Of a stretch of DNA of 64,000 nucleotides, positions 29,210-63,988 are shown piece after piece (within the stretch, counting starts at the first letter, position 1; each line of letters starts with the position of its first letter). The notes beneath the pieces are model-generated. The model saw nothing but the letters and a program-made list of their open reading frames with translations, searched no databases and was not told the origin of the DNA. The position numbers and the translations under genes are program-made. This DNA comes from Egicoccus sp. AB-alg6-2 (GTDB lineage Bacteria; Actinomycetota; Nitriliruptoria; Nitriliruptorales; Nitriliruptoraceae), in assembly GCF_041821025.1 (NCBI RefSeq), contig NZ_JBGUAY010000003.1:248001-312000 (forward strand), read 5' to 3'.

Positions 29210-29893
29210 TCAGGGCGACGTGTCGGCGTCCTGCACCTGCGCCGTCCTGCCGGGCGTGACGAGCCCCGACTCGTAGGCGAGCACGACGGCCTGCGCCCGG
29301 TCCCGCAGATCGAGCTTGCGGAAGATCCGGGTGACGTGGGTCTTCACCGTGGGTTCGGTGATCCAGAGCTCCCGGGCGATCTCGGCGTTGTTGGCTCCCC
29401 GGCCGACCAGCCGCAGCACCTCCGCTTCCCGCCCGGTCAGCTCGGACAGCCGTTCAGCAGCGACCGCGGTGCCGATGGTGTGTTGGTCCACGAGCCGGCG
29501 GAGCACGCTCGGTGCAATGAGTGCCTCGCCACCGACCACCGTGCGAACCGCGTCGGCGAGCGCTTCGGGGCGGGTCTCCTTCAGCAGGAACCCGGATGCG
29601 CCTGCCGTGAGTGCCTCGTAGACGTACTCGTCCGCATCGAAGGTCGTGAGCATGACCACCTTCGAGCTGAGGCCCGGCGTGGCGAGGATGCGTCGGGTCG
29701 CCTCCAGTCCGTCCATCACCGGCATGCGCACGTCCATCAGCATGACGTCCGGCGTGCGCTCCGTCGCCAGCCGCACCGCCTGCGCGCCGTCCTCGGCCAC
29801 GCCGACGACGTCGAGGTCCGGCGCAGCCGAGAGGATCATGGCGAGCCCACCACGCACCAGCGCCTGGTCGTCCGCGATGACGACGCGGATCAC
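29210..29893 (-). CDS. NarL/FixJ-family response regulator
   Basis: 227 residues from GTG 29893, overlapping the kinase stop (GTGA). The receiver has ADDQ, phosphoacceptor Asp54 in MLMDVRMPVMDG and Lys in LLKETRPE; the LuxR helix-turn-helix begins LTGREAEVLRLV and contains EPTVKTHVTRIF. It is the cognate output of the histidine kinase encoded immediately upstream. Confidence 0.95.
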   Translation of the reverse strand: MIRVVIADDQALVRGGLAMILSAAPDLDVVGVAEDGAQAVRLATERTPDVMLMDVRMPVMDGLEATRRILATPGLSSKVVMLTTFDADEYVYEALTAGASGFLLKETRPEALADAVRTVVGGEALIAPSVLRRLVDQHTIGTAVAAERLSELTGREAEVLRLVGRGANNAEIARELWITEPTVKTHVTRIFRKLDLRDRAQAVVLAYESGLVTPGRTAQVQDADTSP

Positions 29894-48153: not shown

Positions 48154-50339
48154 CGGTCGCTCCTGTCGCGCTCGACCACGAGGTTGGCGAGGCCGTCCAC
48201 GCGGGCCTGGAAGCCGGGGTGGATCGGCACGGTGGAGCCGAACTCCTCGACGATCGCCGGGCCGACGATCACGTCGCCGGCGAGCAGCCGTTCGCGGGCG
48301 TAGACCTGCGCGCCGGCGGCGGCACCCTCGAACACGACCGGCCGGTCGCCCGTGCGCGCGCGCGTCGCGTCGCCGTCGCCTTCCGGCAGGCGCGGAAGCA
48401 CCGGCCGCGGGATGGGGCCGATGCCCGTCACTCGGAGATTCACCCACTCCACCGGGTGGCGGTGACGGTGCTCCCCACCGCTGGCGGCCGAATCGGCGCG
48501 ATAGGCATAGCCGTAGAGGCGTTCGTGCTCGTCGTGGAACGCGTCGACCACCGAGCGCTGGAAGGCCTCGTCGATCGGCCCGTCCGGCGCGGGGACCCGC
48601 ACCTCGAACGCCTGGCCGTCGTAGCGCAGATCGGCCGTGCGTACGAACCGGTGCTCGTCCGCGTCGAAGCCCTCGCGGTCGAGTGCATCGGCGGCGCGCG
48701 CCTGCAACGAGCGATAGACCGCCGCCAGTTCGTCGCGGTCGAGCGCGTCGTCGCGCACCACGTGGGTCTGGACGTAGTCGTTCTTGACGTCGACGGTCAG
48801 CAGCCCGAAGGCGGACAGGTTGCCGGGATCGCGGGGCACGATCACGGCCGGCAGGCCGAGGATGTCGATGAGCCGGCAGATCAGCAGCGGCCCCGATCCC
48901 CCGAAGGCGGCCATGGTGAAGTCGCGCACGTCGAGCCCGCGCTTGACGGTGACCTGGCGGATGGCATTGGCCTGGTTCCACGCCGAGATCTCGAGGATGC
49001 CGCGGGCGGCGTCCTCGGGCGACAGGCCGAGCTCGCCGGCCAGGGTCTCGATGCCGGCACGCGCCGCGTCGCGGTCGAGGCCGATCTCGCCGCCCAGCAG
49101 ATGCGGCGGGATGCGTCCGAGGAACACGTGCGCGTCGGTGACGGTCGGTTCCGTGCCCCCGCGGCCGTAACAGATCGGACCCGGGTCGGCGCCGGCCGAG
49201 CGAGGACCGACCTTGAGGGTGCCCTCGGGGCTGATCCAGGCGATCGAGCCACCGCCCGCACCGACGGTGACGATGTCGATCATGGGGATCTTGGACGGGA
49301 ACCGGCCGACGGAACCCTCGGTGGTCAGCGTCGGCTCGCCCCCGAGGACGACCGACACGTCGGTCGAGGTGCCCCCGCCGTCGCACGTGAGCAGCTTGTC
49401 GTAGCCGGCCTCGCCGGCCACCAGTGCGGCGCCGAGGGCGCCGGCCGCAGGCCCCGACAGCACCGTGGTGATCGGCTGGTGGACGACCTCGTCGGCACTG
49501 ATGACGCCGCCGTTGGACTTCATGACGTAGAACGGAACGGATGCGGGGGGCTCCGCCCCCCGCAGACCCCCCGAGACCGGCTCGTCACCACGGGTGGCCT
49601 GGTCCAGGCGGGCTGCGATGTTGCGCACGTAGCGCGTGACCTTCGGCTTGACCGACGCGTCGACCAGCGTCGTGACGGTGCGCTCGTACTCGCGGTACTC
49701 GCGCAGCACCTCGCTCGACAGCGACACGACGGCGTCGGGGTGCTCGGCGGCCAGGACCTCGCGCAGACGCCGTTCGTGCCGGTCGTCGGCGTAGGCGTGC
49801 AGCAGGCACACCCCGATGGTGTCGATCCCGCGGTCGCGGAACCAGCGGGCGACCTCGACGGCGCCGTCGACGTCGAGGGGGCGCACCTCGGCGCCGGTGT
49901 GGTCGAGCCGTCCGCGGACCTCGCGGACCAGGTCGACCGGCACGATGCGGTCCGGCTTGACCCAGAAGTAGCTGTTGCCGTAGCCGTCGGGAACCGACTG
50001 CCGCGCGATCTCGAGGATGTGGCGGTAGCCCTCGGTGGTGATCAGCCCGACCCGCTCGACCGCGTCCTCGAGCAGCGCGTTGGTCGCCACCGTGGTGCCG
50101 TGCGAGACGCCGGTGACGTCCTGCCCCGACGCGCCGAGGATGTCGAGGACCTTGCGGACGCCGTCGAGGAAGCCGATCGACGGGTCGGCCGGGGTCGACG
50201 GGGTCTTGGTGGTGATGATCCGGCCGGTGTCGTGCTCCACGGCGACCACGTCGGTGAACGTGCCACCGGTGTCGATGCCGATGCGCACGCCGCCGCTGGT
50301 CTCGCGATGTTCGGACACGGTGGTCTCACTCCTGCTCAT
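48150..50339 (-). CDS. hyuA: Hydantoinase/oxoprolinase A-type subunit
   Basis: 729 residues from ATG 50339, overlapping the amidase stop. The actin-like ATPase is clear: RIGIDTGGTFTDVVA, GVSHGTTVATNALLE, LTCDGGGTSTDVSVV, VGAGGGSIAWI and AFGGSGPLL. It is the ATP-binding half of the HyuAB complex. Length is normal for the family. Order in transcription is coxG, amidase, hyuA, hyuB, all overlapping by 4 bp, which indicates tight co-translation. Confidence 0.92.
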   Translation of the reverse strand: MSRSETTVSEHRETSGGVRIGIDTGGTFTDVVAVEHDTGRIITTKTPSTPADPSIGFLDGVRKVLDILGASGQDVTGVSHGTTVATNALLEDAVERVGLITTEGYRHILEIARQSVPDGYGNSYFWVKPDRIVPVDLVREVRGRLDHTGAEVRPLDVDGAVEVARWFRDRGIDTIGVCLLHAYADDRHERRLREVLAAEHPDAVVSLSSEVLREYREYERTVTTLVDASVKPKVTRYVRNIAARLDQATRGDEPVSGGLRGAEPPASVPFYVMKSNGGVISADEVVHQPITTVLSGPAAGALGAALVAGEAGYDKLLTCDGGGTSTDVSVVLGGEPTLTTEGSVGRFPSKIPMIDIVTVGAGGGSIAWISPEGTLKVGPRSAGADPGPICYGRGGTEPTVTDAHVFLGRIPPHLLGGEIGLDRDAARAGIETLAGELGLSPEDAARGILEISAWNQANAIRQVTVKRGLDVRDFTMAAFGGSGPLLICRLIDILGLPAVIVPRDPGNLSAFGLLTVDVKNDYVQTHVVRDDALDRDELAAVYRSLQARAADALDREGFDADEHRFVRTADLRYDGQAFEVRVPAPDGPIDEAFQRSVVDAFHDEHERLYGYAYRADSAASGGEHRHRHPVEWVNLRVTGIGPIPRPVLPRLPEGDGDATRARTGDRPVVFEGAAAGAQVYARERLLAGDVIVGPAIVEEFGSTVPIHPGFQARVDGLANLVVERDRSDR

Positions 50340-51613
50340 GCCGGCAACAGGGACGCGAGCAGACGTGCCGCCCCCAGGGCCAGGCCGTCGTCGTGCGCGC
50401 GGGCGACGGTCTGGACGCCCAGCGGCAGCCCGTCCGCCCCGGTCAGCCCCGGGACCGCGACGGTCGGCAGACCGAGCAGCGTCCAGGGGCGGCACAGCAT
50501 CGGGTCCCCGGTCGTCGCGGCGTCGGGCGCCTCACCGAGCACGCTCGGGGCCAGCAGCACGTCGACGTCGGCGAAGACGTCGCCGAGCTGTCCCAGGCAC
50601 CGCTCCCGCAGTGCGACCGCCCGGTCGTAGTCGCTGACCAACTGCCGGGCGTCGTCGAGGTAGGCGCGCAGCCGGGCGCTCAGCCGGGCGGCGTGGTGGT
50701 CGATCTCGTCGGCGAGGGCGTCGAGCACCTCGGTGCCCATCACGACCTGCTGTGCCTCGACCAGCCCGGCGAAGGCGCCGGGCAGGGTGACCTCGACGAA
50801 CTCGACGTCGTCGGCGAGACGTTCGACGGCCCCGAGGATGCGCCCCCGGGCACTGCGCTCGACGGCCTGCCACCACGGCGTGCGCACGAAGCCGATGCGG
50901 GGTCGCGGACCGGGTTCGACGGGCCGGAACCGCTCGTGGTCGTCGGCCATCACGCCCAGGCCCAGCGCGACGTCGTCGACGTCGTTGCCGAGGAGGCCCA
51001 CCGTGTCGAGACTCGGCGAGCACAGCTTGACCCCGTCGAGCGGCAACGCGCCGAAGGTCGGTTTGGCGCCGACGACGCCACAGAACGAGGCCGGGCGCAC
51101 GACCGACCCGGCGGTCTGGGTTCCGATCGCCAGCGGCACCGTGCCGGCCGCGACCGCCGCGGCCGAGCCGCTGGAGGACCCGCCCGGCGTGCGGGTCTGG
51201 TCGTGGGGATTGCGCGTCGGACCGGGCTGGAACAGGGCGAACTCCGTGGTGACCGTCTTGCCGATGACGACGGCACCGGCGGCGCGCAGCCTGGCGACCG
51301 CGACGGCGTCGGCATCGGGCCGGCGGCCGGCGTAGATCGGGGAGCCGTGCGCGGTCGGTTGGTCGGCCGTGTCGACGATGTCCTTGACCCCGACCGGCAC
51401 GCCGTGCAGCGGGCCACGCTCGTCGGCCGGCATGGCGTCGAGCGCCCGGGCCTGCACGAGTGCGGCTTCGGGATCGAGGTGCGCCCAGGCGTGCAGGTCG
51501 TCCTCGCGCGCCGCGATGGCGTCGAGGTGGCCTTGCACGACCTCGACGACCGACGTCTCGCCGGCCTCGACGCGGGCGCGGATCTCCCCGGCGGTTCCCA
51601 GCGGCGCCGTCAC
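50336..51613 (-). CDS. Amidase signature-family enzyme
   Basis: 425 residues. The Ser-cisSer-Lys triad is visible: Lys77 in GVPVGVKDIVD, cis-Ser at 145-146 in RTPGGSSSGSAAA, and the nucleophile Ser169 in GTQTAGSVVRPASF. The family hydrolyses linear amides, including oxamate-like, carbamoyl and malonamate-type substrates. Set between coxG and hyuA with 4-bp overlaps, it probably acts on the ring-opened product of HyuAB or on the oxamate-like product of AllFGH. It lacks the extra C-terminal domain of allophanate hydrolase. Confidence 0.92.
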   Translation of the reverse strand: MTAPLGTAGEIRARVEAGETSVVEVVQGHLDAIAAREDDLHAWAHLDPEAALVQARALDAMPADERGPLHGVPVGVKDIVDTADQPTAHGSPIYAGRRPDADAVAVARLRAAGAVVIGKTVTTEFALFQPGPTRNPHDQTRTPGGSSSGSAAAVAAGTVPLAIGTQTAGSVVRPASFCGVVGAKPTFGALPLDGVKLCSPSLDTVGLLGNDVDDVALGLGVMADDHERFRPVEPGPRPRIGFVRTPWWQAVERSARGRILGAVERLADDVEFVEVTLPGAFAGLVEAQQVVMGTEVLDALADEIDHHAARLSARLRAYLDDARQLVSDYDRAVALRERCLGQLGDVFADVDVLLAPSVLGEAPDAATTGDPMLCRPWTLLGLPTVAVPGLTGADGLPLGVQTVARAHDDGLALGAARLLASLLPA

Positions 51614-52245
51614 GGCCGCAGGCGCCGGCCGACCAGCACGCCGGCGAGCGCGACGAGCGCGCCGAGCCCGAACGCGGCCAGCAGCTCCGGCAGCCGGCTG
51701 CCGGACCCGCCCGCCGCGGCACGGCCGGCGAAGACCTGGCCGACCTCGGCGGTGGTGGCGGCCCGGGCGTCCCCCCCGACGGCGGGAGCCGCGGCCGCCG
51801 CCGGGCCGTGCAGCAGCTCGCGTTCGACGGCGGCGAAGAACTCGCCCGCTGTCTTCTTCGCGACGCCGGCCAGCATCCGCTGCCCGACGCCGCCGATCAT
51901 GCCGCCGATCACGGCGTCGGCGTCGAAGGTGACGGCCGTGGTGCCGTCACCCTGCTCGGCCAGGTCGATCACCGCATCGGCGCGGATGGTGCCGGGCGCG
52001 CCGGCTCCCTCGGCCCGGAGGCGGTAGTTCGACGGCTCCTGCCGGTCCGAGAGCTGGACCCGCCCCTGGTAGGTGCCCTTGACGCTCGCGACACCGGCGG
52101 TGACCGTGGCGGCGTAGGTGTCGTCGCCCGTCACCTCCAGTGCCTCGCAGCCGGGGATGGTGCGGGCGAGGACGGCGGGATCCTGCAGCGCGTCCCAGAC
52201 CTGCTGACGCGGCGCCGCCACGGTGTAGGTACCGGAGATCTTCAC
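51610..52245 (-). CDS. coxG: CoxG-like SRPBCC protein with C-terminal membrane anchor
   Basis: 211 residues. Residues 1-145 are an SRPBCC/START-like fold of the CoxG type (ISGTYTVAAPRQQVWDALQD, PGCEALEV), then a flexible Ala/Gly-rich linker and a C-terminal membrane helix (LLAAFGLGALVALAGVLVG) with a basic end. CoxG of carboxydotrophs anchors CO dehydrogenase at the membrane, and recent work on mycobacterial CoxG shows it extracts menaquinone for the enzyme. Here it would link the Mo hydroxylase to the quinone pool. Confidence 0.9.
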   Translation of the reverse strand: MKISGTYTVAAPRQQVWDALQDPAVLARTIPGCEALEVTGDDTYAATVTAGVASVKGTYQGRVQLSDRQEPSNYRLRAEGAGAPGTIRADAVIDLAEQGDGTTAVTFDADAVIGGMIGGVGQRMLAGVAKKTAGEFFAAVERELLHGPAAAAAPAVGGDARAATTAEVGQVFAGRAAAGGSGSRLPELLAAFGLGALVALAGVLVGRRLRP

Positions 52246-54623
52246 GAGTCACCTCCTGCGGCCAGTCGCAGCTCGTGCAGCTGCGACGGCGAGATCGGCA
52301 TGGCGCGGACGGTGACGCCGGTGGCGTCCTCGATGGCGGCGGCGATGGCCGCCGAGCCGGGGATGACGCCGGCCTCTCCGGCACCCTTGATGCCCAACGG
52401 GTTGAGCGGGGAGGGCGTCTCGAGGTGGTCGATGTCGACGGCCGGCACCTCGGTGGCGTACGGCATCAAGAAGTCCATGAACGAGGCGTTGAGCAGCTGG
52501 CCGTGCTCGTCGTAGGCCATCTTCTCGTAGAGCGCGCCGCCGACGCCCTGCGCGACGCCGCCGAGGACCTGGCCGCGCACGATCATCGGGTTGACGAGGT
52601 TGCCGCAGTCGTGGACGACGGCGTAGCGGCGGATGGCGATGTCGGAGGTGTCGGGGTCGACCTCCACCTCGACGGCGTGCATGCCGTTGGCGAAGGTGGA
52701 GCGCACCGGAGAGTAGTAGTCGGTGCCCTCGAGGCCCGGTGCCTGCCCCTCGGCGACCGGTGGCCTGGTCGGGTCGTTTGGCCCGGCGAACTGCGTCGCC
52801 GCCTTGGCGTGTTCGTCGAAGGCGTAGCGCAGCGGGTTCGACAGGGTGGCCAGCATCGACAGCGGCAGGGAGGTGTCGGGACTGCCCTTCACCTGGGCGC
52901 GCCCGTCGGCGAGCTCGAGGTCCTCGACGTCGACCTCCAACGCGTCGGAGGCGAGCTGCAGCGCCTTCTCGCGCACCTTCTTCGCGGCGAGGTGGACGGC
53001 GTTGCCCGACATCACCGCGGCACGTGAGGCGAAGGTGCCGACGGCATAGGGGAAGCGGCGGGTGTCGCCGGTGACGACCTTCACCTGGTCGAGCGGGACG
53101 CCGAGTTCGTCGGCCACGATCTGGGCGAAGGCGGTCTGATGGCCCTGCCCCTGGGTGCCCAGGCCGGTCGCGACCTGGACCGTGCCGTTCGGTTCGACGA
53201 GCACGTGGCCGCCCTCGTAGGGACCGACGCCGGTGCCCTCGACGTAGCAGGCGAGTCCGATGCCGAGCAGTCGGCCCTCGGCCGCCGCGTCGGCCTTGCG
53301 CTGGGCGAAGCCGTCCCAGTCGACCAGCTCCTTCAGCTTCGCCAGCGACGCCGGGAAGTCACCGGAGTCGTAGGTGTAGTCGCGGCCGTCCTGGAAGGTC
53401 AGGCCGAAGGCGTAGGGCATCTCGTCGGGCTGAATGAAGTTTCGTTCCCGCACCCGCGTGCGGTCGAGGCCGAGCTCCGCCGCGATCGCGTCGACGGTGC
53501 GCTCCATCAGGAAGCAACCCTGGGGGCGGCCGGCGCCGCGATAGGGTGTGACGGGGGTCTTGTTGGTGTAGACGCTGCGGAACTCGACGCGGTAGTGCTC
53601 GATCCGGTACGGGCCGAGCAGCTGGGTCGAGGTGATGATCGGGACGATCAGCCCGTAGGGGATGTAGGCGCCGTGGTCGTGGAGGAAGCGGACGTCGAGC
53701 CCGAGGATCCGCCCCTCGTCGTCGAAGCCCACCTCGACCCACTGGACCTGGCCGCGCTCGTGGTTGGCGGACACGAAGTGCTCGTGCCGGTCCTCGGTGA
53801 ACTTGACCTCGCGGTCGAGCAGCCGCGCCGCCCAGGGCACGAGGATCTCCTCGGGCCAGGGGTGCATGATCTTGACGCCGAAGCCGCCGCCGACGTCCGG
53901 CACGACAACGTCGACCTGGGCGAAGTCGAGTTCGAGGAAGGTCGCGATGGCGGCCCGCACGCTCGTCGGCGCCTGGGTCGAGGTGTGAACGCGCAGGCGA
54001 CGGTCGTCGGCGTCCCAACGGGCATGGACACCGCGGCCCTCCAGCGGCGTCGAGGCGGAACGCTCGATGTCGAGGCGCAGCGACAGCCGGCGGGGGGCGC
54101 GGGCGAGGGCGGCGTCGACGTCGCCGATGGTCTGGGTCAGTTCAGCCGCGACGTTGCCCGGGACGCTCTCGTGGACGTCCACGCCGTCGGCCACGGCGGC
54201 CTCGAGGTCGACGACGACCGGAAGGATCTCGTAGTCGACCCGGATCCGGTCGAGCACGTCCTCGGCGACATAGCGGTCGCTGGCCACCACCATCGCGATC
54301 GCCTCGCCGACGTGGTTCACCACGCCGTCGGCGAGCACCTTCTGCGTCACCGGCGCGGTCAGCGACGGATGCGGGATCAGCAACGGCATGGACTGCTGCA
54401 GCCGCGGCGGCAGGTCCTCGTAGGTGTAGATCGCGACGAGCCCGTCGACGGTGACGGCGTCGGTGACGTCGATGTCGAGGATGCGGGCGTGCGCGTGGGG
54501 GCTGCGCAGCACGGCGACCGCCAGGGCGTCGTGGCCGAGGTCGTCGAGGTAGCGGCCCTCGCCGCGGAGCAGCCGGGGGTCCTCCACCCGGGCGACCGCG
54601 GCACCGAACTGGCGCGTGGTCAC
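52242..54623 (-). CDS. Molybdenum hydroxylase large subunit (CoxL-like, not CO dehydrogenase)
   Basis: 793 residues from GTG 54623, overlapping the small-subunit stop. Xanthine oxidase-family landmarks: VGGGFGVK, the active-site loop PYRGAGRPQ at residues 360-368, GTQGQGHQT, and the catalytic Glu750 in GIKGAGEAG. Form I CO dehydrogenase needs a Cu-binding Cys in AYRCSFR at the same loop; here it is Gly-Ala-Gly as in form II and nicotine/quinoline-type hydroxylases. The enzyme therefore most likely hydroxylates an N-heterocycle using water, passing electrons through CoxS and CoxM. Substrate unknown. Confidence 0.9.
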   Translation of the reverse strand: MTTRQFGAAVARVEDPRLLRGEGRYLDDLGHDALAVAVLRSPHAHARILDIDVTDAVTVDGLVAIYTYEDLPPRLQQSMPLLIPHPSLTAPVTQKVLADGVVNHVGEAIAMVVASDRYVAEDVLDRIRVDYEILPVVVDLEAAVADGVDVHESVPGNVAAELTQTIGDVDAALARAPRRLSLRLDIERSASTPLEGRGVHARWDADDRRLRVHTSTQAPTSVRAAIATFLELDFAQVDVVVPDVGGGFGVKIMHPWPEEILVPWAARLLDREVKFTEDRHEHFVSANHERGQVQWVEVGFDDEGRILGLDVRFLHDHGAYIPYGLIVPIITSTQLLGPYRIEHYRVEFRSVYTNKTPVTPYRGAGRPQGCFLMERTVDAIAAELGLDRTRVRERNFIQPDEMPYAFGLTFQDGRDYTYDSGDFPASLAKLKELVDWDGFAQRKADAAAEGRLLGIGLACYVEGTGVGPYEGGHVLVEPNGTVQVATGLGTQGQGHQTAFAQIVADELGVPLDQVKVVTGDTRRFPYAVGTFASRAAVMSGNAVHLAAKKVREKALQLASDALEVDVEDLELADGRAQVKGSPDTSLPLSMLATLSNPLRYAFDEHAKAATQFAGPNDPTRPPVAEGQAPGLEGTDYYSPVRSTFANGMHAVEVEVDPDTSDIAIRRYAVVHDCGNLVNPMIVRGQVLGGVAQGVGGALYEKMAYDEHGQLLNASFMDFLMPYATEVPAVDIDHLETPSPLNPLGIKGAGEAGVIPGSAAIAAAIEDATGVTVRAMPISPSQLHELRLAAGGDS

Positions 54624-55147
54624 GGCTGCACCTCCGGCCGGTGCTGCTGGCGTGGGTCGGCGCCCGTCGCGCGAAAGGCCCCGGCGGCCTGCTCGACCGC
54701 GGCCAGGATGCCGGCGTAACCGGTGCAGCGGCACAGGTTGCCCGCCATGCCCTCGCGGACGTCGTCGTGGTCGGCGTCGGGGTGCTCGGCGAGGAAGCCA
54801 CAGGCCGACATCACCATGCCGGGCGTGCAGAAGCCGCACTGCAGCCCGTGGCAGTCGCGGAACGCGGCCTGCACCGGGTGCAGGGTGCCGTCGTCGGCGG
54901 CCAACCCTTCGACGGTCGTCACCTCCGCGCCGTCGACGGCGACGGCGAAGACCAGGCACGACCGCACGTTGCGCCCGTCGAGCAGCACGGTGCAGGCACC
55001 GCACACCCCGTGTTCGCAACCCACGTGGGTCCCGGTCAGCCGCAGATCGTGACGCAGGAAGTCCGACAACAACCGGCGGGCGGGCACCGTCGCACGGTGC
55101 AGCGCGCCGTTGACGGTCACCGTGACCTCGTGGTGTGGCTCGGTCAC
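54620..55147 (-). CDS. Molybdenum hydroxylase 2[2Fe-2S] small subunit (CoxS-like)
   Basis: 175 residues from GTG 55147, overlapping the FAD subunit stop. A plant-type [2Fe-2S] centre is formed by GCEHGVCGACTVLLDG plus the Cys in VRSCLVF, and the helical [2Fe-2S] centre by LQCGFCTPGM and NLCRCTGY. Both are complete. It relays electrons from the molybdenum site to FAD. Confidence 0.95.
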   Translation of the reverse strand: MTEPHHEVTVTVNGALHRATVPARRLLSDFLRHDLRLTGTHVGCEHGVCGACTVLLDGRNVRSCLVFAVAVDGAEVTTVEGLAADDGTLHPVQAAFRDCHGLQCGFCTPGMVMSACGFLAEHPDADHDDVREGMAGNLCRCTGYAGILAAVEQAAGAFRATGADPRQQHRPEVQP

Positions 55148-56028
55148 GCGCGCACCTCCGTGTCGGTTCCGGCAGCCGCGGCGGCCCGGACCAGTGCCCG
55201 CTCGAGGAGGACGCCGGCCAGGTGGCGGCGGTAGGCGGCCGTGGCGTGGATGTCGTCGTCGGGATCGATGGCCTCGCGCGCGAACGCCGTCGCGTCGGCC
55301 GGGCGCAGCGCGTCGGCGGACTGGCCCGCCAGGGTGTCGGTGAGCTCGATGCGCTCGGGCAGACCGCCCACGCCGAAGAAGGCCCCCTGCGCGCTGCGAA
55401 CCCTGCGGTCGTCGTCCAGGTCGATCCGCGCGCACACGCCGGCCAGCGCGTAGTCGCCGTGCCGCCGCGCCAGTTCCTCGATCGCCATGCCGGTCCCCGG
55501 GTCCGGGACGGCGAACTCCACGGCGGTGGCCAGCTCGCCGGGCCGCAGCGCCGACTCCAGCGGACCGGTGAACGCTTCGGCGCCCGTGACGGAACGGACG
55601 CCGTCGCTGCTGCGCAACTCGAGTCGGGCGTCCAGGAGTGCCACGACCGCCGGCATCTCCGCGGCGGGGTCGGCGTGGACGATCGAGCCGACACTCGTGC
55701 CACGGTTGCGGATGACCGGATGGGCGACCAGCCGCAGGGCCTCGCGCAGCAGCGGCACCGCGAACGCCACCTCGTCGTCGCCCTCGAGACGACGGTGGGT
55801 GACGCGGGCACCGACGCGGACCCGGTCGCCGTCCACCTCGACGGTGTCCAGCGCGTCGAGGTGGCGGATGTCCACGAGCGCGGCCGGCGCGACCAGGCGC
55901 ATGTTGAGCATCGGAACCAGGCTCTGACCGCCGGCGAGGACCTTGCCGTCATCGCCGAGCTCGCCCAGCAGCGCCAGCGCCTCGTCGAGCGAGCGGGGGG
56001 CGTGGTAGGCGAACACCGGCGGTTTCAC
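55144..56028 (-). CDS. Molybdenum hydroxylase FAD subunit (CoxM-like)
   Basis: 294 residues from GTG 56028, with GGAGG about 8 nt upstream. The FAD pyrophosphate motifs are AGGQSLVPMLNMRL (AGGHSL in CoxM) and RGTSVGSIVHADPAAEMPAV. It is the first gene of an eight-gene run. Electrons leave FAD to quinone, probably with CoxG. Confidence 0.93.
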   Translation of the reverse strand: MKPPVFAYHAPRSLDEALALLGELGDDGKVLAGGQSLVPMLNMRLVAPAALVDIRHLDALDTVEVDGDRVRVGARVTHRRLEGDDEVAFAVPLLREALRLVAHPVIRNRGTSVGSIVHADPAAEMPAVVALLDARLELRSSDGVRSVTGAEAFTGPLESALRPGELATAVEFAVPDPGTGMAIEELARRHGDYALAGVCARIDLDDDRRVRSAQGAFFGVGGLPERIELTDTLAGQSADALRPADATAFAREAIDPDDDIHATAAYRRHLAGVLLERALVRAAAAAGTDTEVRA

Positions 56029-56097
56029 GTGTCCTGCCTCCCTCGCCCCTGGCCGGACGCCGCTCCCGGACGGCTCCCGCTCCGCCGAACCCGGGAC

Positions 56098-56130
56098 GCT
56101 AGCGAAGGCGGCTCGTGCGCTGCTCGTCAA
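56098..56130 (-). promoter_or_regulatory. Candidate promoter of the Mo-hydroxylase operon
   Basis: On the minus strand TTGACG lies at 56130-56125 and a TAGC-containing -10-like segment (GCTAGCGT) about 20 bp later, roughly 70 bp before the GTG at 56028. The spacing is longer than ideal. Confidence 0.3.
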
Positions 56131-56185
56131 CCTCTGCCGAATCGAACGCCGCCCGACTGTGCGACCGTGCCCGTCGGGTGACGCC

Positions 56186-56551
56186 TCACGCGGCGGCGAT
56201 CTCGGCCAGTTGCGCCGTCAGGCTCGCGAAGTCGCTGCCCTTCTGCAGGCAGGCACGGGCACCCAGACCGATCACCTGCTCGCAGAGCGACGGCTCGGCG
56301 AAACCGGTCAGGACCACGACGCGGGGCGAGGGGTCGTGCAGGTGGGTGAGGACCTCGAGGCCGTCCATCCGCGGCATGGCGAGATCGAGCAGCAACAGGT
56401 CGGGACGCAGGTCCGCGACCAGCTCCAGGGCCTCGGCTCCGTCCTCGGCTTCACCGACCACCTCGAACCGTCCGTCGCGCTCGAACAGCAGCCGCAGCAG
56501 CCGCCGCAGCGTCGCGTCGTCGTCGGCGAGCACCAGGCGCCACGTCATCAT
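56186..56551 (-). CDS. Stand-alone receiver (CheY-like) protein
   Basis: 121 residues from ATG 56551, which overlaps the PAS protein stop by 4 bp. Receiver landmarks: LADDDA, phosphoacceptor Asp56 in LLLDLAMPRMDG and the Thr/Lys positions VVLTGF and CLQKGSD. It has no output domain. It is coupled to a PAS protein whose kinase core is degenerate, so its phosphate source is unclear. The pair sits between the AllFGHK-like genes and the Mo-hydroxylase operon. Confidence 0.87.
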   Translation of the reverse strand: MMTWRLVLADDDATLRRLLRLLFERDGRFEVVGEAEDGAEALELVADLRPDLLLLDLAMPRMDGLEVLTHLHDPSPRVVVLTGFAEPSLCEQVIGLGARACLQKGSDFASLTAQLAEIAAA

Positions 56552-57543
56552 CGGTCCGGGCTCTCGACGTTGGCGGGCGCGGCGCGGGCGAGGTCGCCCG
56601 GACCGATGGGTTCGTCGCGGGCCGCCTCGCGCAGGGCCGTGGTCACCAGCTCCTGCGCGTCGCTGGTGGTGCGACGGACCAGCGCGACGCCTTCGTCGAC
56701 CTGCCCGAGCTCGAAGGCCAGCCACGCCGCCGACAGCCCCTGCACGACGTTGTCGTTGAGTTCCAGGGCCTGGCGTTGGCCCTCGATCGCGCGCTGCAAC
56801 CGCTGCCGATCCTCCTCGGCGCGGTGTACGTCGGTGACGTCCTGGACCGTGCCGAACATCCGGATCGGGTTGCCGGCGTCGTCGGTGACCACCTCGCCCC
56901 GACCCTGCACGACGCGGACCTCACCGTCGGGCCGCACGACCCGGTAGGTCACGCCGCGCACCACGTCCCGGCCGCTGCTGACCAGATCGATCCGACCTGT
57001 CACCCGATCGAGGTCGTCGGGATGGATCAGTTCGAGGACCCGGTCCATCGACGCCGGCTCGTCCTCGCGGAGTCCGATGATGCGCCGGTACTGCGCCGAC
57101 CATTGCAGCGTGTCGTCGATGAGGTTCCAGTCCCAGCTGCCGATGTCGGCGAGCGTCTCGAGCTCTTCGAGCTTGCGGGTCGCCTCGACCTGGTCGGAGA
57201 CGTCGCGCCCGTAGGCAAGGATCCGATCGCCGCCGACCGGGATCATCGACGCGCGGACCACCCGGCGTCCCTGGGGCAGCTCACGGACCGCCTCGTAGTC
57301 GGTCGGGTGACCGCCGGCGAGGGTCTCGCGGGCGCGCCGCACGACGTCGGCCAGCTCCGCCGGGGGATACAGCTCGCTCCCCAGGCGCCCCCGCAGCGAC
57401 GCGGCATCGATGCCGAACAGCGCCGCCATCGCCGGATTGACCGCGACGATGCGCAGGTCGTCGTCGAGGACCTCGAGCACGACGGCTCCGTCCTCGAGCG
57501 CCATGAACAGGCCGATGGCGGCCCCGGTCACGTCGTCCAACAC
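56548..57543 (-). CDS. Double-PAS protein with degenerate, ATPase-less kinase core
   Basis: 331 residues if started at GTG 57543, just before the first PAS domain; an upstream start is possible. Two PAS domains occupy about 10-120 and 130-245 (GTVQDVTDVHRAEED ends the second). The following helix reads ALELNDNVVQGLSAAWLAFELG, which aligns with the HisKA_3 core EL-H-D-xxxQ-xL but has Asn263 where the phospho-accepting His belongs. The protein ends about 65 residues later with no HATPase domain. It is likely a pseudokinase or dimerising ligand sensor that influences the receiver encoded next to it. Confidence 0.78.
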   Translation of the reverse strand: MLDDVTGAAIGLFMALEDGAVVLEVLDDDLRIVAVNPAMAALFGIDAASLRGRLGSELYPPAELADVVRRARETLAGGHPTDYEAVRELPQGRRVVRASMIPVGGDRILAYGRDVSDQVEATRKLEELETLADIGSWDWNLIDDTLQWSAQYRRIIGLREDEPASMDRVLELIHPDDLDRVTGRIDLVSSGRDVVRGVTYRVVRPDGEVRVVQGRGEVVTDDAGNPIRMFGTVQDVTDVHRAEEDRQRLQRAIEGQRQALELNDNVVQGLSAAWLAFELGQVDEGVALVRRTTSDAQELVTTALREAARDEPIGPGDLARAAPANVESPDR

Positions 57544-57643
57544 CGCCCCAGCACCCGGTGGCCGTCGAACGGGCCACGATCGCCGGAGCGTAACGCCCGC
57601 CGCCGCCCGTCGAGCGCGTTTCGCCCGCTTTCGCTGGCGGTGT

Positions 57644-59050
57644 TCAGCCGGCCGCGGCCAGCGCCCGGACGGCCTCGACGAACACCGCCATCGGTGGCTC
57701 GACCAGGCCCGCCCCGACCTGGCCCGTGCCGGCTTCGCGCCCCGCGATGCCGGTGTTGACGGCGGGCACGATGCCGGTGCGAACGACCCGCGTGACGTCG
57801 ATGCCGACCGGGGTGCCGCGGAACTCCAGGATCGGGATCTGGAAGTGCGGGTGCTCACCGAGGGCGATGTCGTACATGGTCTGCGTCGCCGTCAGCGCGT
57901 CGCCGACCGCGCCGCCGACGAACCGCACGATCGCGGGTGCGGCCGCCATGGCGAAGCCGCCGACGCCGGAGGTCTCGGTGATGGTGGAGTCGCCGATGTC
58001 GGGGTTGGCGTCGTCGGGGCCGTAGTCGCCCAGGAACAGGCCGTCCGGGACCTGGGCGGGCGCCGTGAACCACCGGTCGCCCGTTCCCGACACCTGGATG
58101 CCGAAGTCGGTGCCGTTGCGGGCCATCGCGACCACGACGCTGCAACCGGGGAGGTCGCGGGCCGGGTCGACCGCCGCCTTGCCGGCCGGCATCCCGAGGT
58201 TGAGGAAGAAGTGCTCGTTGCCGTTGATGAAGCGGACCACGTCGGCGAGGTCGCCCGGGTCGATGCCGGCTTCGAGCAGGGGCGGGACGACCTCGCGCAC
58301 GAACAGCGACGAGGCGGCCCGGTTGCGGTTGTGCAGCTCGTCGCCCATCTGCAGCGCCTGCACCATCAACGCCCGGATGTCGAGCGACTCGAGACGTTCC
58401 ACGGCCGCGGCCATCGCCGGTCCGAGCACGTCGTGCATCCACCGCAGGCGGGTGATCACCTCGGGGCCGTAGGCGCCGTAGCGCAGCACCTTGCCCAGGC
58501 CCTCGTTGAGGCTGCAGTACGCCTGGTTGCCGAAGGCGGCGTTCTCGATCACGAACATCGGCATGGACGGGCTCACCACGCCCGCCATCGGCCCGACCGC
58601 CTGGCGCGAGTGGCACGGCGCGAGCTCGATGCCGCCCCGCTCGGCGATGGCGACGGCCTCGTCGGGCGTCTGGGCCATCCCCTCGTAGAGCATCGCCCCG
58701 ATCAACGCCCCGCGCAGCGGTCCGCTGGCGCGGTCCCAGGTGATCGGCGGACCGGCGTGCAGGAACTGGCCGGTGTCGATGCCCACCGCCTCGCGGGCGG
58801 TCGTGATGCCGACCCAACGTGGTTCGGCGGACGTGATGCGTTCCAGCGCGGTGGCGTTGGCGTCCGCGATCCGGGGGTCGGCCGCGACGGTGGCCAGCTC
58901 GGCGGCGACGTCGCCGGCCGGCGGTCGCCAGTCGACGACCACCGGATCCACTCCCTGCGCCCGCAGCGTGGTGTCGAACAACTCGACGCCGGCGGTGACG
59001 ATGCGTGGCTGGCCGGCCAGCAGGCCGGCGAGCGGTTGGTCGTTGCTCAC
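57644..59050 (-). CDS. allG: AllG-like (YlbE, DUF1116) carbamoyltransferase component
   Basis: 468 residues from GTG 59050, overlapping the fdrA-like stop by 4 bp. It matches DUF1116 proteins: AEPRWVGITTAREA, IGAMLYEGMAQTPDEA, APCHSRQAVGPMAG and the C-terminal LEFRGTPVGIDVTRVV. In E. coli FdrA, YlbE and YlbF (AllF, AllG, AllH) have been assigned as the three parts of oxamate carbamoyltransferase, acting on oxalurate in anaerobic allantoin use. Gene order and coupling here (allK-H-F-G) support the same complex, though the physiological carbamoyl donor could differ. Confidence 0.9.
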   Translation of the reverse strand: MSNDQPLAGLLAGQPRIVTAGVELFDTTLRAQGVDPVVVDWRPPAGDVAAELATVAADPRIADANATALERITSAEPRWVGITTAREAVGIDTGQFLHAGPPITWDRASGPLRGALIGAMLYEGMAQTPDEAVAIAERGGIELAPCHSRQAVGPMAGVVSPSMPMFVIENAAFGNQAYCSLNEGLGKVLRYGAYGPEVITRLRWMHDVLGPAMAAAVERLESLDIRALMVQALQMGDELHNRNRAASSLFVREVVPPLLEAGIDPGDLADVVRFINGNEHFFLNLGMPAGKAAVDPARDLPGCSVVVAMARNGTDFGIQVSGTGDRWFTAPAQVPDGLFLGDYGPDDANPDIGDSTITETSGVGGFAMAAAPAIVRFVGGAVGDALTATQTMYDIALGEHPHFQIPILEFRGTPVGIDVTRVVRTGIVPAVNTGIAGREAGTGQVGAGLVEPPMAVFVEAVRALAAAG

Positions 59051-60519
59051 AGCGCGCCTCCCAGGAGTTCGACGGCCTTCCGGGCCGCGGCGGCGTTGCT
59101 GAGGTGCACCGAGGCGCCGGCGTCCACCAGGGCCCGGACCTGCTTGTCCCGGCCCTGGGGGTCGCCGGCCGTGCCGCACAGCGACACGACCACCGCGAGG
59201 TCCTCGCCATCGGCGATCGCCTCGGCGATGGCCGGCGCCAGTTCGGCCGCCGGGTCGGGATGCGCGCCGTGCCCGAGCACGACGTCCAGCAACAGGACCC
59301 TGCCACCGGGGCGGGCGGCCTCGGCGGCGATGCGCTCGAGCCGCAGCCCCTGGTCGATCATGGGGTGCGGACGGCCGCGGGTGAACTCGTCCTCGCCGAA
59401 GTCCACGAAGACGTGACCGGGGGTGTCGAGGCCGTCGTCCAGTGGCCGGCCGTCCGCCAGGGGGATGTTGGAGGCGATGGGTGCGTCGAGGTGGGACGCC
59501 GCGATCAGCATCGCCTCGTCGCAGAGGGTGCCACCGGCGAACAGGCCGCGGAGTTCGGTGTAGGTGCCCTGCCGTTCGCGCGGCGCGGGCCACGAGGCCG
59601 GGGGCGTGAAGGTCGCGCCGGCGATCTGCACCACGGTCCCCGCCGTGCTCGTGAGGTCGTTCGCGTCCGGCCCCAGCAAGGCGAACACGACGGGCGTCGT
59701 CAGCTCGTCGGCCAGCGCGTGCAACGCCTGGGAGACGTCGGGGTCGGCCGGCTTCGACAGCACGACGATCGTGGTCGTGGCCGGGTCGGCGTCGAGCGCG
59801 CGCATCGCCTGCTGGGTGGAACTGCCCCCGACGGCGGCTGAGAGGTCACGGCCACCGACACCGAGGACGTGGCTGATGCCGACGCCGGCGTCGTCGAGCA
59901 GGCAGGTCAACTGCTGTGCACCGGTACCGGACGCGGCGACGATCCCGATGGGTCCCGGCCGCACGACGTTGGCGAACCCGAGGCCGACGCCCGAGACGAT
60001 CGCCGTGCCGGCGTCTGGGCCCATCACCAGCACGCCCCGGTCGGCGGCGGCCTGTTTCAGCGCGACCTCCTGCTCGACGGGCACGTTGTCGCTGAACACC
60101 ATGACCGATGCGCCGGCGCGGACGGCGTCCATGGCCTCGAGGTAGGCGTACTCGCCGGGGACCGAGACCAGCACCAGGTCCGCACCGCCGGTCAGTGCCG
60201 CCGCCGTGGTGCGGGCGGGGGGTGCGTCGCCGAACCCGCCGCCGCTGGCGCCGCCACGGGTCGCGGCCAGGGCGACCTCGACCTCGGCGAGTGCGGCGTC
60301 CAGGGCGTCGTCCTGGGCGCGGATCGCGACGAGCAGGTCGTTGGGTCCTGCGTCGGGCGCTGCGAAGCCCATGCCGACGAGCAGTTCGCGATTGAGCTCG
60401 GTGCCCATCGCGACCAGCACCTTGTCGACGCCGGGCAGGTCGCCGACGCGGCGGCTGACCTGCATGAGACTGACCGAGTCGTGGTAGACGCCGCGGCGGA
60501 CGTCGAGGTGGTCGACCAT
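59047..60519 (-). CDS. allF: FdrA/AllF-like acyl-CoA synthetase-fold carbamoyltransferase component
   Basis: 490 residues. The fold is that of succinyl-CoA synthetase alpha fused to a beta-like part: GTELNRELLVGMGF at the start, DNVPVEQEVALKQAA, VMGPDAGTAIV, GIVAASGTGAQQLTCLL and LLLDVVLGHGAHPDP late in the chain, where a phospho-carrying His may lie. This is the FdrA/AllF family. The start overlaps the stop of the allH-like gene and the end overlaps allG. Confidence 0.91.
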   Translation of the reverse strand: MVDHLDVRRGVYHDSVSLMQVSRRVGDLPGVDKVLVAMGTELNRELLVGMGFAAPDAGPNDLLVAIRAQDDALDAALAEVEVALAATRGGASGGGFGDAPPARTTAAALTGGADLVLVSVPGEYAYLEAMDAVRAGASVMVFSDNVPVEQEVALKQAAADRGVLVMGPDAGTAIVSGVGLGFANVVRPGPIGIVAASGTGAQQLTCLLDDAGVGISHVLGVGGRDLSAAVGGSSTQQAMRALDADPATTTIVVLSKPADPDVSQALHALADELTTPVVFALLGPDANDLTSTAGTVVQIAGATFTPPASWPAPRERQGTYTELRGLFAGGTLCDEAMLIAASHLDAPIASNIPLADGRPLDDGLDTPGHVFVDFGEDEFTRGRPHPMIDQGLRLERIAAEAARPGGRVLLLDVVLGHGAHPDPAAELAPAIAEAIADGEDLAVVVSLCGTAGDPQGRDKQVRALVDAGASVHLSNAAAARKAVELLGGAL

Positions 60520-61415
60520 CAGCGGGTCTCCTCGGGAACGGGGGACGTCGGTGGCGCGGGCACGACGACGGAGGCGATCAGACGCGCGCCGGTCAGGATG
60601 CCGACGCCGAGATCGCGGCCGGACGTGGCTCCGACCCGAAGCAGCCGCTGGACGGCCGGGGTCATCGGTGCCGCGCCGGCCAGCGCGGTGAAGACGTCAG
60701 CGGCGGCGTCGCTCACCTCGCCGGCGACCGCGTGCGCGAGCAAGGCCGCAGAGATGGAGGTGGTGCGCGTGCTCGCACGCTGCACGCTGGCATCGCCGAC
60801 CTGACGGACCAGGCCGGTCAGACCGGCGAGGTCGTGGCCGTCGACGACCGGCCCGAGCAACGACACCGCGGCGAAGATGCCCGACAGCACGTCGTCGCCC
60901 GAGGGGGTCAGACCGGGCCCGAGCCCGAGGAGCGCGTCGGCCTGGCCCAGGGCGGCGTCCCGGTCGCCGTCCGCCAGGGCACGGTGCAGGCGGGACCGTG
61001 GGACCGCGAGCTCGTGCGGCAGCGGCGCGGCGGCCGTGGCGAGCAGCAGCTGGAGGGCGGACACGGTGTCGCCGAGGACGCCGGGGACGACCGGCGGCAG
61101 CGCGGGGCGGGGACGCCACCAGCGTCGCACGGCGGCCGCGAATCCGGGCAGACGGACGTGGTGGTCACCGACCGTGCCCTGCCCGCCGACGGGAATCCCG
61201 GCGAAGGGACGGTCGTCGACCTTGGCGCCGATGGCGATGGCGTTGGGATGGCGGACGCCGTCCGCGGTGACCAGCGCGAGCACGCCGTCGGTGTGCGCGA
61301 GGTAGACCGCGGCGGGGAACGCCGCGAGCACCTCGACCCGGATCGTCGGACCGGCGACGCGTCGGCGGATCGCGTCGCTGGCGCTGGCACCCACGACCGC
61401 GGGGGACCCGCTCAT
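60519..61415 (-). CDS. allH: AllH-like (YlbF, DUF2877) carbamoyltransferase component
   Basis: 298 residues. The DUF2877 signature LLGLGPGLTPSGDDVLSG is intact. It overlaps carbamate kinase by 4 bp upstream and shares the TGATG junction with the fdrA-like gene downstream. As part of AllFGH it would help transfer a carbamoyl group from a ureido acid to phosphate. Confidence 0.9.
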   Translation of the reverse strand: MSGSPAVVGASASDAIRRRVAGPTIRVEVLAAFPAAVYLAHTDGVLALVTADGVRHPNAIAIGAKVDDRPFAGIPVGGQGTVGDHHVRLPGFAAAVRRWWRPRPALPPVVPGVLGDTVSALQLLLATAAAPLPHELAVPRSRLHRALADGDRDAALGQADALLGLGPGLTPSGDDVLSGIFAAVSLLGPVVDGHDLAGLTGLVRQVGDASVQRASTRTTSISAALLAHAVAGEVSDAAADVFTALAGAAPMTPAVQRLLRVGATSGRDLGVGILTGARLIASVVVPAPPTSPVPEETR

Positions 61416-62356
61416 GAGGCGACGACCTGCGTGCCCGCGTCACCGTGGACGGCGGCGACGATGTCCTCGAGCGCACCGATCACGGCCCGCCGGCCGGTCC
61501 GCTCGACGAAGCGGCAGGCCGCGTCGACCTTCGGGCCCATGGAACCGGCACCGAACTGGCCCTGGGCCGCGAACTCGCGCAGCTCCGCGACCGTGACGGT
61601 CTCCAGCCAGCGCTGCGACGGCGTGCCGTAGTCGACGGCGACGCCGGCGACGTCCGTCAGGATGGCGAAGCTGTCGGCGCCGATCTCCTCGGCGAGCAGC
61701 GCCCCGGCCAGGTCCTTGTCGATGACGGCCTCGACTCCGCGCAGCGGACCGTCGCCGTCGTCGACCACGGGGATGCCGCCGCCGCCGTTGGCGACCACGA
61801 TCGCTCCGTCGTCGAGCAGCAGTTCGACGGCGGGCCGGTCGACCGAGCGCAGGGGCTGCGGCGAGGCGACCAACCGTCGCCAGCCGCGTCCGGGGACGTG
61901 GGTGAAGGCAAGTCCTTCGGCTTCCCGGCGGCGCACCTCGGCCTCGTCGCGCAGCCAGGGCCCGATCGGCTTGCTGGGCGCGCCGAATCCGGGGTCGTCC
62001 GCGGCGACCAGGACCCGGCTGACCACCGGCACGACCGGCTGGTCGAGGCCGCGCTGCGCGAGCTCGTAGGTCAGGGTGTCGGCGATCGTGAACCCGATGG
62101 TCGCCTGGGTCTGGGCGACGCACCAGTCCAGCGGGACGGGCGGGACGACGTCGCGGGCGAGCTCGTTCTTGATCAGCACGTTGCCGACCTGGGGCCCGTT
62201 GCCGTGGGTGAGCACCAGCGCGGTGCGGCCCTCGGCGACCAGTTCGGCGACCTGGCCCATCGTCGACCACAGACGTTCCGTCTGTTGCGCGGCGGTACCC
62301 GCCCCGTCGGGTGCGATGGCGTTGCCGCCGAACGCGAGCACCGTGCGCGATGCCAC
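61412..62356 (-). CDS. allK: Carbamate kinase
   Basis: 314 residues from GTG 62356, preceded by AGGAG. Amino-acid-kinase fold motifs: LAFGGNAIAPDG, LTHGNGPQVGNVLIKNE, VANGGGGIPVV, AVIDKDLAGALLAEEI and FGAGSMGPKVDAA. It converts carbamoyl phosphate and ADP to carbamate and ATP, so it is the energy-yielding step after AllFGH. The linkage to allHFG, rather than to arginine deiminase genes, favours the AllK role over ArcC. Confidence 0.92.
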   Translation of the reverse strand: MASRTVLAFGGNAIAPDGAGTAAQQTERLWSTMGQVAELVAEGRTALVLTHGNGPQVGNVLIKNELARDVVPPVPLDWCVAQTQATIGFTIADTLTYELAQRGLDQPVVPVVSRVLVAADDPGFGAPSKPIGPWLRDEAEVRRREAEGLAFTHVPGRGWRRLVASPQPLRSVDRPAVELLLDDGAIVVANGGGGIPVVDDGDGPLRGVEAVIDKDLAGALLAEEIGADSFAILTDVAGVAVDYGTPSQRWLETVTVAELREFAAQGQFGAGSMGPKVDAACRFVERTGRRAVIGALEDIVAAVHGDAGTQVVAS

Positions 62357-62476
62357 CTGCTGCTGCTCCTGGTCGACGGGGGACGAGCCTAGGCAGTCCC
62401 GGTGGGCGACGGTTCGGCGACTCTCACCGATCCGACACCCCGCGCGTCGTCACAACCCGCCGTTCGTCACCGACGA

Positions 62477-62512
62477 GGACGGGGCCGCGACCTCCCGGTC
62501 GCGGCCCCGTCC
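62477..62512. terminator. 16-bp perfect-stem terminator after the permease gene
   Basis: GGACGGGGCCGCGACC-TCCC-GGTCGCGGCCCCGTCC is a perfect 16-bp stem with a 4-nt loop, 18 bp downstream of the permease stop at 62531. It separates the permease from carbamate kinase, whose likely promoter (a TAGGCT element near 62389) lies in the remaining 120 bp. No U-tract. Confidence 0.78.
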
Positions 62513-62530
62513 GAATCGGGCAGGTGTCGC

Positions 62531-63988
62531 TCAGACGCCCTGCATGTCACCCGGTGGGATGACGGGGTCCTTGGTGCCGAGGTCGTAGGTGCCGACCCCG
62601 CGCTCCTCGTCGGTGCCAGGCACCAGGTTGTCGAGCAGCAGGCCGAGGACGGCGGCGACGGCGATGCCGGAGCTGCCGATGGCGCGGACGATGCTGGTCA
62701 ACCAGCCGATGCCGAACAGCGACCACTCGTCACCGGCGTAGTTGCCGAAGTACTGCGGGAACACGAAGCCGCTGAACAGCACGATGCCCAGGATCATCAG
62801 GTTTCGTTGCGAATCGAGGTCGACCCGCCGCAGGTTGGACAGACCGATCGCGGCGATGAGCCCGAACAGCGCCAGGTACACCCCGCCGACGATCGGGCCG
62901 GGGATCGTGGCGATGAACGCGCCGATCTTGGCGACGAAGCCGAACAGGAGCAGGAAGACCGCACCGATGAGCACCACCGCCCGGCTGGCGACCTTGGTCA
63001 GGCCGACCAGGCCGATGTTCTCCGAGTACGAGGTCGAGGAGAACCCGCCGAAGATGCCGGTGAAGAAGCAGCCGACGCCCTCCATGCCGATGCCCCGGTT
63101 GATCGTCTTCGCGTCGGGGTCGCCTGCGCCCGCGATACGCGAGATGGCGTGGTAGTCGCCGAACGACTCGATGGTCGAGGCGAGGTAGGCGGCAAGGATG
63201 GCGAAGAAGAAGCCGAGGTCGAACAGCGGCGTCCCCCACGGGAAGATCAACCCGCCACCGCCGACGTCGAAGCCGCGCACCCACGGCGTCTCACCGACGA
63301 CGCCGAAGCTGACGTAGCCGGCAACCGTCTCGGGTAGGACCCCCGTGACCGACAGCAGCAGACAGACGAGGTAGGCCGTGACCACCGCGAGCAGGATCGG
63401 GAACAGCGAGATCATGCGCGAACGCGGCGCCAGCACGAGACCGAACAGCACGATCAGCGCGGTCGTGGCCAGCGCCAGCCACCAGTTGGGCGAGGCGTTG
63501 ATCACGGTCGCGTCGTACAACGACAGACCGATCAGGGCGATGACCGGAGCGATGGTGATCGGCGTCACGTAGCGCCGCAGCAGCCCACCGATGCCGCCGA
63601 AGCCGATCGCCATCTCGACCACGGCACCGGCCATGATCGCACCGGCGATGTAGCGCATCGCGTCCTCGCCCTGGTAGGTGAGGGCGATGCCGATGAAGGG
63701 GCCGAGGAAGGCGAACGAGACCCCCTGCACGATCGGCAGGCGTGAGCCGAACTGCACCTGCAGGAAGGTCGCGATCGCCGAACAGATGAAGACCGAGCTG
63801 ATGAGGATCGCCAGCTGCCCCGAGTCGAACTCCAGGAACGGCGACAGGATGAACGGCACGGCGACCGTCGCCCCGAACATGGTCAAAACGTGTTGGAGGC
63901 CGAGGGCCATGGCCTTCGGCAGCGGCTTCGGAATCTCGTCGAGTCCGTACTTGAGCCCGTGCGGGCGGTTGGGCGCTTCCGCGCTCAT
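62531..63988 (-). CDS. NCS2-family nucleobase (uracil/xanthine-type) permease
   Basis: 485 residues with about 12-14 membrane helices. The NAT/NCS2 signature is present as SENIGLVGLTK, and the helix-8 region has the expected Glu in LASTIESFGDYHA; helix 1 shows the QH motif in LGLQHVLTMFGA. These residues place it in the xanthine/uracil/uric acid transporter family. GGGGAG lies 5 nt before the ATG. As the first gene of the minus-strand block it probably imports the heterocycle degraded by the downstream enzymes. Its terminator means it can be expressed separately. Confidence 0.92.
   Translation of the reverse strand: MSAEAPNRPHGLKYGLDEIPKPLPKAMALGLQHVLTMFGATVAVPFILSPFLEFDSGQLAILISSVFICSAIATFLQVQFGSRLPIVQGVSFAFLGPFIGIALTYQGEDAMRYIAGAIMAGAVVEMAIGFGGIGGLLRRYVTPITIAPVIALIGLSLYDATVINASPNWWLALATTALIVLFGLVLAPRSRMISLFPILLAVVTAYLVCLLLSVTGVLPETVAGYVSFGVVGETPWVRGFDVGGGGLIFPWGTPLFDLGFFFAILAAYLASTIESFGDYHAISRIAGAGDPDAKTINRGIGMEGVGCFFTGIFGGFSSTSYSENIGLVGLTKVASRAVVLIGAVFLLLFGFVAKIGAFIATIPGPIVGGVYLALFGLIAAIGLSNLRRVDLDSQRNLMILGIVLFSGFVFPQYFGNYAGDEWSLFGIGWLTSIVRAIGSSGIAVAAVLGLLLDNLVPGTDEERGVGTYDLGTKDPVIPPGDMQGV

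Follow-up and report, generated by a model that had tools for sequence, protein, structure and literature searches.

The window analysed here, a DNA stretch of 64,000 nucleotides, carries on its minus strand two overlapping genes that encode a PAS sensor and a receiver. The sensor gene (56548..57543) starts with GTG and encodes 331 amino acids which, according to the translation, Pfam, and an AF2 model, are arranged as PAS-PAS-DHp-like without a HATPase_c domain. Pfam detected two PAS domains on this protein, the first at residues 23-119 (PAS_4; 57187..57477, minus strand) and the second, with its PAC region, at residues 146-245 (PAS_3 146-233, TIGR00229 146-245; 56809..57108, minus strand). 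In the AF2 model, a helix that runs on from the second PAS domain (residues 237-278), a turn, and a second helix (residues 282-310) form a DHp-like helical hairpin (56614..56835, minus strand), followed by a short third helix (residues 317-321); confidence was good over most of the hairpin and poor for the last dozen residues. The end of the chain reads ALELNDNVVQGL...ESPDR and stops about 21 residues past the hairpin. A PGDLAR motif (residues 315-320; 56584..56601, minus strand) lies where the CA (ATPase) domain would be.

The partner gene (56186..56551, minus strand) encodes a single-domain receiver of 121 amino acids that matches Response_reg in Pfam (E=3.3e-24) and shares 4 nucleotides with the sensor gene (56548-56551). 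By computed numbering, its codon for Asp56, intact as the first-pass annotation had stated, is at 56384..56386 (minus strand), and the sensor has a phosphorylatable partner.

Upstream of the pair lie, in the order of transcription, genes for a xanthine/uracil-type permease (62531-63988), an amino-acid-kinase-family protein (61412-62356), an AllH-like protein (60519-61415), a CoA-ligase-domain protein (59047-60519), and an AllG-like protein (57644-59050). Three molybdopterin dehydrogenase subunits, a CoxG-like protein, and an amidase are encoded downstream. The AllG- and AllH-like proteins resemble oxamate carbamoyltransferase subunits, and from its gene content the island (50336-63988) looks like one for purine-derived oxamate/carbamoyl catabolism. 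The pair had been placed between the two halves of a catabolic island; this position is real, the island being of purine type, and it is kept in congeners. The pair and much of its neighborhood recur in the congeneric genomes G040 (L172) and G042 (L173), and the AllG-sensor-receiver order in G041 (L041). This recurrence ties the pair to the island but says nothing of whether the pair regulates it.

The sensor motif ALELNDNVVQGL spans residues 259-270 by computed numbering and contains Asn263 (codon 56755..56757), Asp264 (56752..56754), and Gln268 (56740..56742), all on the minus strand. The last two lie four residues apart on the docking helix and form a DxxxQ pair. It had been proposed from a first reading of the sequence that this motif aligns with HisKA_3, with Asn263 in place of the phospho-acceptor His, and that the chain ends without HATPase_c; the numbering and a profile alignment bear out the former, and the translation and Pfam the latter. 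Pfam itself gave no HisKA_3 match to the 331-residue sensor, even at E<=1, and the family's gathering cut-off was not reached. A match to DUF6244 (E 0.0008-0.003, below the cut-off of that family) was judged to be a chance helical match.

Profile comparison of relatives revealed the kinship more clearly. When 22 tails of the family described below were compared with 15 true HisKA_3 DHp domains in hhalign, the match had a probability of 96.2% (E=2.4e-9) and placed Asn on His, Asp on Asp, and Gln on Gln/His. In single-tail Pfam searches, HisKA_3 was the most frequent match (11 of the 22 tails, best 5.7e-5), and a paralogous tail from the source genome reached 22.3 bits, just short of the 24-bit cut-off. 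Judged from these profiles, the likeness of the tail to HisKA_3 is greater than chance. VIA-align of the AF2 tail returned as its top match DesK in the DesR complex (Z 8.8, 3.4 A over 75 residues); many unrelated hairpins scored Z 6-8, so for helical hairpins this Z does not settle the matter, and since the aligned residue ranges are some seven residues off the sequence register, this match supports the fold only. A profile search of PDB chains ranked designed repeat proteins first, with DesK reaching no better than E about 2, and we gave it no weight.

We searched for relatives with profiles in the window's class, its phylum, two further classes, and three public contigs. The public-contig search, run with three tails, gave only 3 loci, and the whole-genome profile search recovered more. 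Together they yielded 88 distinct tails whose hairpin is not directly joined to an ATPase domain. These come from several classes of the phylum, and the source genome contributes three, the window protein included. The class of G066 (24 genomes) held no further members, and the matches listed for plasmid records had 28-33% identity, mostly across the PAS part. In one list, the ATPase-less tails scored above 40 bits and 28 full-length HisKA_3 kinases below 36 bits.

The first-pass annotation had asked whether Asn is conserved among homologues, and it is not fixed: the acceptor position holds Asn in 63 tails, His in 20, Gln in 3 (L037, L038, and L060), and Ser in 2 (L036 and L039). What is conserved instead is Asp at +1 (88/88) and Gln at +5 (87/88, with His in the remaining tail). 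Ala at -4 (85 tails), Glu at -2 (71), Leu at +7 (82), and Ala at +10 (80) are also common. The search profile favors Asp and Gln, yet the Gln-less L110 was still recovered at 40.7 bits; most members score far over the threshold, so a tail lacking one of the two residues would generally still be detected. The full-length HisKA_3 kinases from the same search all have His (28/28), and among the sequences compared, loss of His is confined to tails without a CA domain.

Two paralogous pairs in the source genome carry His at the position of the window protein's Asn. L002 has a 333-residue PAS-PAS sensor containing ...TALTVHDRVVQAL... and L006 a 306-residue sensor with a likely membrane N-terminus and ...TALELHDNVVQAL..., each with an overlapping receiver gene. 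In a tree built from 60 columns with the acceptor column excluded and eight kinases for comparison, the ATPase-less family formed one side of a branch against the kinases (support 79). The His/non-His state changed at least eight times on this tree, which is weakly resolved with its deeper forks open; if only strongly supported branches are counted, far fewer changes are required (two for the His group). One change from His to Gln falls within a clade of 98% support, and the Gln pair L037/L038 sits nested among His members. With both the His and the CA domain missing, the window sensor might be taken for a decayed, functionless kinase gene. We regard this as extremely improbable, as it is strongly contradicted by the open frames and conserved motifs of 88 members in several classes and by the finding that four genomes of the genus have kept the pair in the same neighborhood.

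A receiver is fused to the sensor or encoded nearby in 68 of the 88 members: 10 are fused, 48 lie directly downstream (start within ~60 nucleotides), and 10 are either elsewhere in the vicinity or N-terminal to it within one chain. Among the other 20, 18 have no receiver in up to ~5 kb per side and two have one 1-4 kb off. The phospho-Asp is kept in all 68 receivers, as are the Lys and Ser/Thr bar one gap each, and Phe occurs at Ser/Thr+2 in 49/68. In L127, a single chain is ordered receiver, hairpin (with Asn), receiver. In 13 of the 68 pairs (L045, L047, L019, L051, L037, L038, L116, L117, L120, L121, L125, L126, and L058), the receiver runs on into a HisKA and HATPase_c core, although the full core is not always inside the locus; Pfam, applied to six of these, found HATPase_c in all six and HisKA in four. 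In L058, sensor, tail, receiver, and kinase core are all in one chain. This arrangement suggests that in the 13 pairs the hairpin protein may control a receiver-headed kinase. No clear case of such a kinase was found in the source genome among 30 HATPase_c loci, which were short. Because the receivers retain the phospho-Asp, Lys, and Ser/Thr, they look like real phosphorylation targets, which in some relatives head a kinase.

These data bear on whether the hairpin itself might carry phosphate. As a phosphotransfer or phosphate-sink domain, it would receive phosphate either in trans, from the CA domain of another kinase, or back from the receiver, and the His found in 20/88 members, two of them in the source genome, together with the partner receivers joined to a HATPase_c kinase, would suit such a role. 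In the remaining 68, the window protein included, Asn, Gln, or Ser makes phospho-His impossible, and the 88 tails contain no other conserved His or Cys that could substitute; the sole invariant Asp is the +1 residue, as in kinases. There is also no HATPase_c near the window pair, the nearest on the contig being ~26 kb away (29932-30186). The first-pass annotation had named a split ATPase completing the kinase as a finding that would overturn its reading. None is encoded near the pair, and, since an Asn acceptor cannot be phosphorylated, it could not restore a kinase here. Phosphotransfer is thus excluded for the Asn members, barring another acceptor residue, and as an account of the family it is very unlikely. 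The window also encodes an ordinary HisKA_3 kinase that retains its CA domain, together with a response regulator whose C-terminus is LuxR-like (29210-31104, minus strand); these would make a useful in-window control.

Another possibility is that the CA-less chain tunes a full-length HisKA_3 kinase as its heterodimer partner, the receiver being an operon side product. The kinase ChrS forms heterodimers with its paralog HrrS, whose output is raised by truncated ChrS (PMC9491836); partners would be at hand in the source genome, which has 11 HisKA_3 matches above the cut-off. However, the tight linkage to receivers, fusions included, indicates the receiver as the partner, and the loop length and flanking residues are unlike those of full kinases, making this explanation improbable.

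The first-pass annotation had described the locus as a pseudokinase-receiver switch. The pseudokinase coupled to a receiver stands, and extends family-wide, but the unspecified switch is better replaced by "phosphatase" because the conserved Asp+1 and Gln+5 are the HisKA_3 phosphatase pair. Retention of exactly these two residues, with the His freed and the ATPase dropped, is the pattern expected of a phosphatase-only descendant; with a receiver usually adjoining, a sensor-controlled "off switch" is probable rather than a broken kinase. We propose that a HisKA_3-type sensor kinase would have lost its CA domain and its phospho-acceptor His while retaining the dimerising DHp hairpin with DxxxQ. 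The PAS domains would sense a signal, and the continuous signaling helix would control how the hairpin dimer is rotated, one state of which would dock the co-encoded receiver. Asp264 and Gln268 would then open the active site and position the water for hydrolysis of phospho-Asp56. The receiver, with its presumed downstream target, would be phosphorylated from elsewhere, by a kinase in trans or by small phosphodonors, and loss of the His would abolish autophosphorylation and back-transfer. That the window protein descends from a HisKA_3 kinase and acts as such a PAS-gated, kinase-dead phosphatase on its partner receiver is in our estimate an evenly balanced proposition.

Several known enzymes are consistent with this mechanism. 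DxxxQ is needed for the phosphatase activity of NarX and is common to CheZ (PMC3510030). In DesK, Gln193 positions the water and Asp189 forms a salt bridge with the receiver; the phosphatase state buries the DesK His, H188V has normal phosphatase activity, and DesR inserts its Ser/Thr+2 Phe into the DesK DHp pocket in that state (PMC5231405). The His of NarX is dispensable for phosphatase activity (PMC5231405). The DHp domain of HK853 has phosphatase activity in isolation (PMC5727384).

Other data speak against it. The EnvZ DHp alone showed no phosphatase activity in mammalian cells, although an earlier report disagrees (PMC8971529); ChrS, which is probably a closer parallel, its phosphatase mutant being Q191A, five residues past His186, appears to lose phosphatase function without its CA domain (PMC9491836); and the phosphatase of DrBphP requires ATP. 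True HisKA_3 kinases almost always have an Arg at +47, which by count matches DesK Arg235, a residue that contacts the receiver (PMC5231405); the family does not keep it. In addition, 20/88 members have no receiver alongside, and Asp and Gln could be retained for receiver docking alone.

This last point leads to the main rival, in which the hairpin would be a DivL-like docking platform that binds the receiver, perhaps only when phosphorylated, and performs no chemistry, either sequestering the receiver or changing how the sensor engages a third protein. DivL, which carries PAS domains and an acceptor other than His, binds the single-domain receiver DivK~P with no kinase or phosphatase activity of its own (PMC4211667). 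Truncated ChrS, a pseudokinase, acts despite lacking its His and, apparently, phosphatase activity (PMC9491836), and the receiver linkage in 68/88 fits. By contrast, the family chains stop after the hairpin, with no other output domain to report binding, the strictness of Gln+5 goes beyond what docking alone obviously requires, and DivL has the CA domain that the family lacks. Docking without chemistry is therefore a serious explanation but on balance rather an unlikely one.

The putative phosphatase can be placed among known systems. Like NarX, DesK, and ChrS, which are HisKA_3 proteins with DxxxQ, the family has a sensor N-terminal to the hairpin, a receiver partner, and the DHp register A-4, E-2, L-1, D+1, V+3, Q+5, L+7; unlike them, it has no CA domain, mostly Asn for the acceptor His, a shorter hairpin, no Arg kept at +47, and at the C-terminus a short G-x-L/F-x-R motif in place of the CA domain. 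It shares with DivL/DivK of Caulobacter the PAS sensor, the non-His acceptor, and the single-domain receiver partner. DivL, however, has Tyr and no phosphatase activity, and its H, N, G1, F, and G2 boxes are reportedly retained along with the CA domain, whereas the family is HisKA_3-derived, has no CA domain, and keeps DxxxQ. The DivL type combines a non-His acceptor with a retained CA domain, and the window sensor, with no CA domain, falls outside it. CheZ, a dedicated CheY-P phosphatase, is likewise helical, with a DxxxQ pair and a single-domain receiver; it belongs to a different protein family without a sensor domain, and the likeness is mechanistic only. DrBphP, a light-activated response regulator phosphatase of kinase ancestry, also has a kinase-related sensor and shows phosphatase without detectable kinase activity, but it is of the HisKA family, keeps its CA domain and His, and needs ATP.

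Extended to all members, the proposal would describe a family of kinase-dead sensors, found in several classes of one phylum and derived from HisKA_3 by loss of the CA domain and release of the His position, whose members would serve as signal-gated phosphatases dedicated to single-domain receivers or receiver-headed kinases and form a "phosphatase-only" arm of two-component signaling; we hold this to be plausible, if somewhat short of an even chance. The parts (PAS, DHp, receiver, and DxxxQ) are already known. No account of a receiver-paired HisKA_3 family that lacks the CA domain and, in most members, the His came up in the literature searched; as this took in few subscription papers, it is weak evidence of novelty. 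Many sensor kinases are bifunctional, and whether the phosphatase half can stand alone under sensor control is debated, DHp-only versions having given mixed results. A natural family minus the kinase half, with D and Q kept, would make this question directly testable. If the proposal is true, adjoining PAS-DHp and receiver genes would be complete signaling units and not a PAS protein beside an orphan receiver, the annotation that they readily attract.

Finally, a motif of the P-G-D-L-V/A-R type, similar to the PGDLAR of the window sensor, follows the hairpin in 51/88 tails under a permissive pattern (G-x-L/F-x-R), and many of the tails outside these 51 finish in a similar LLR or LRR.
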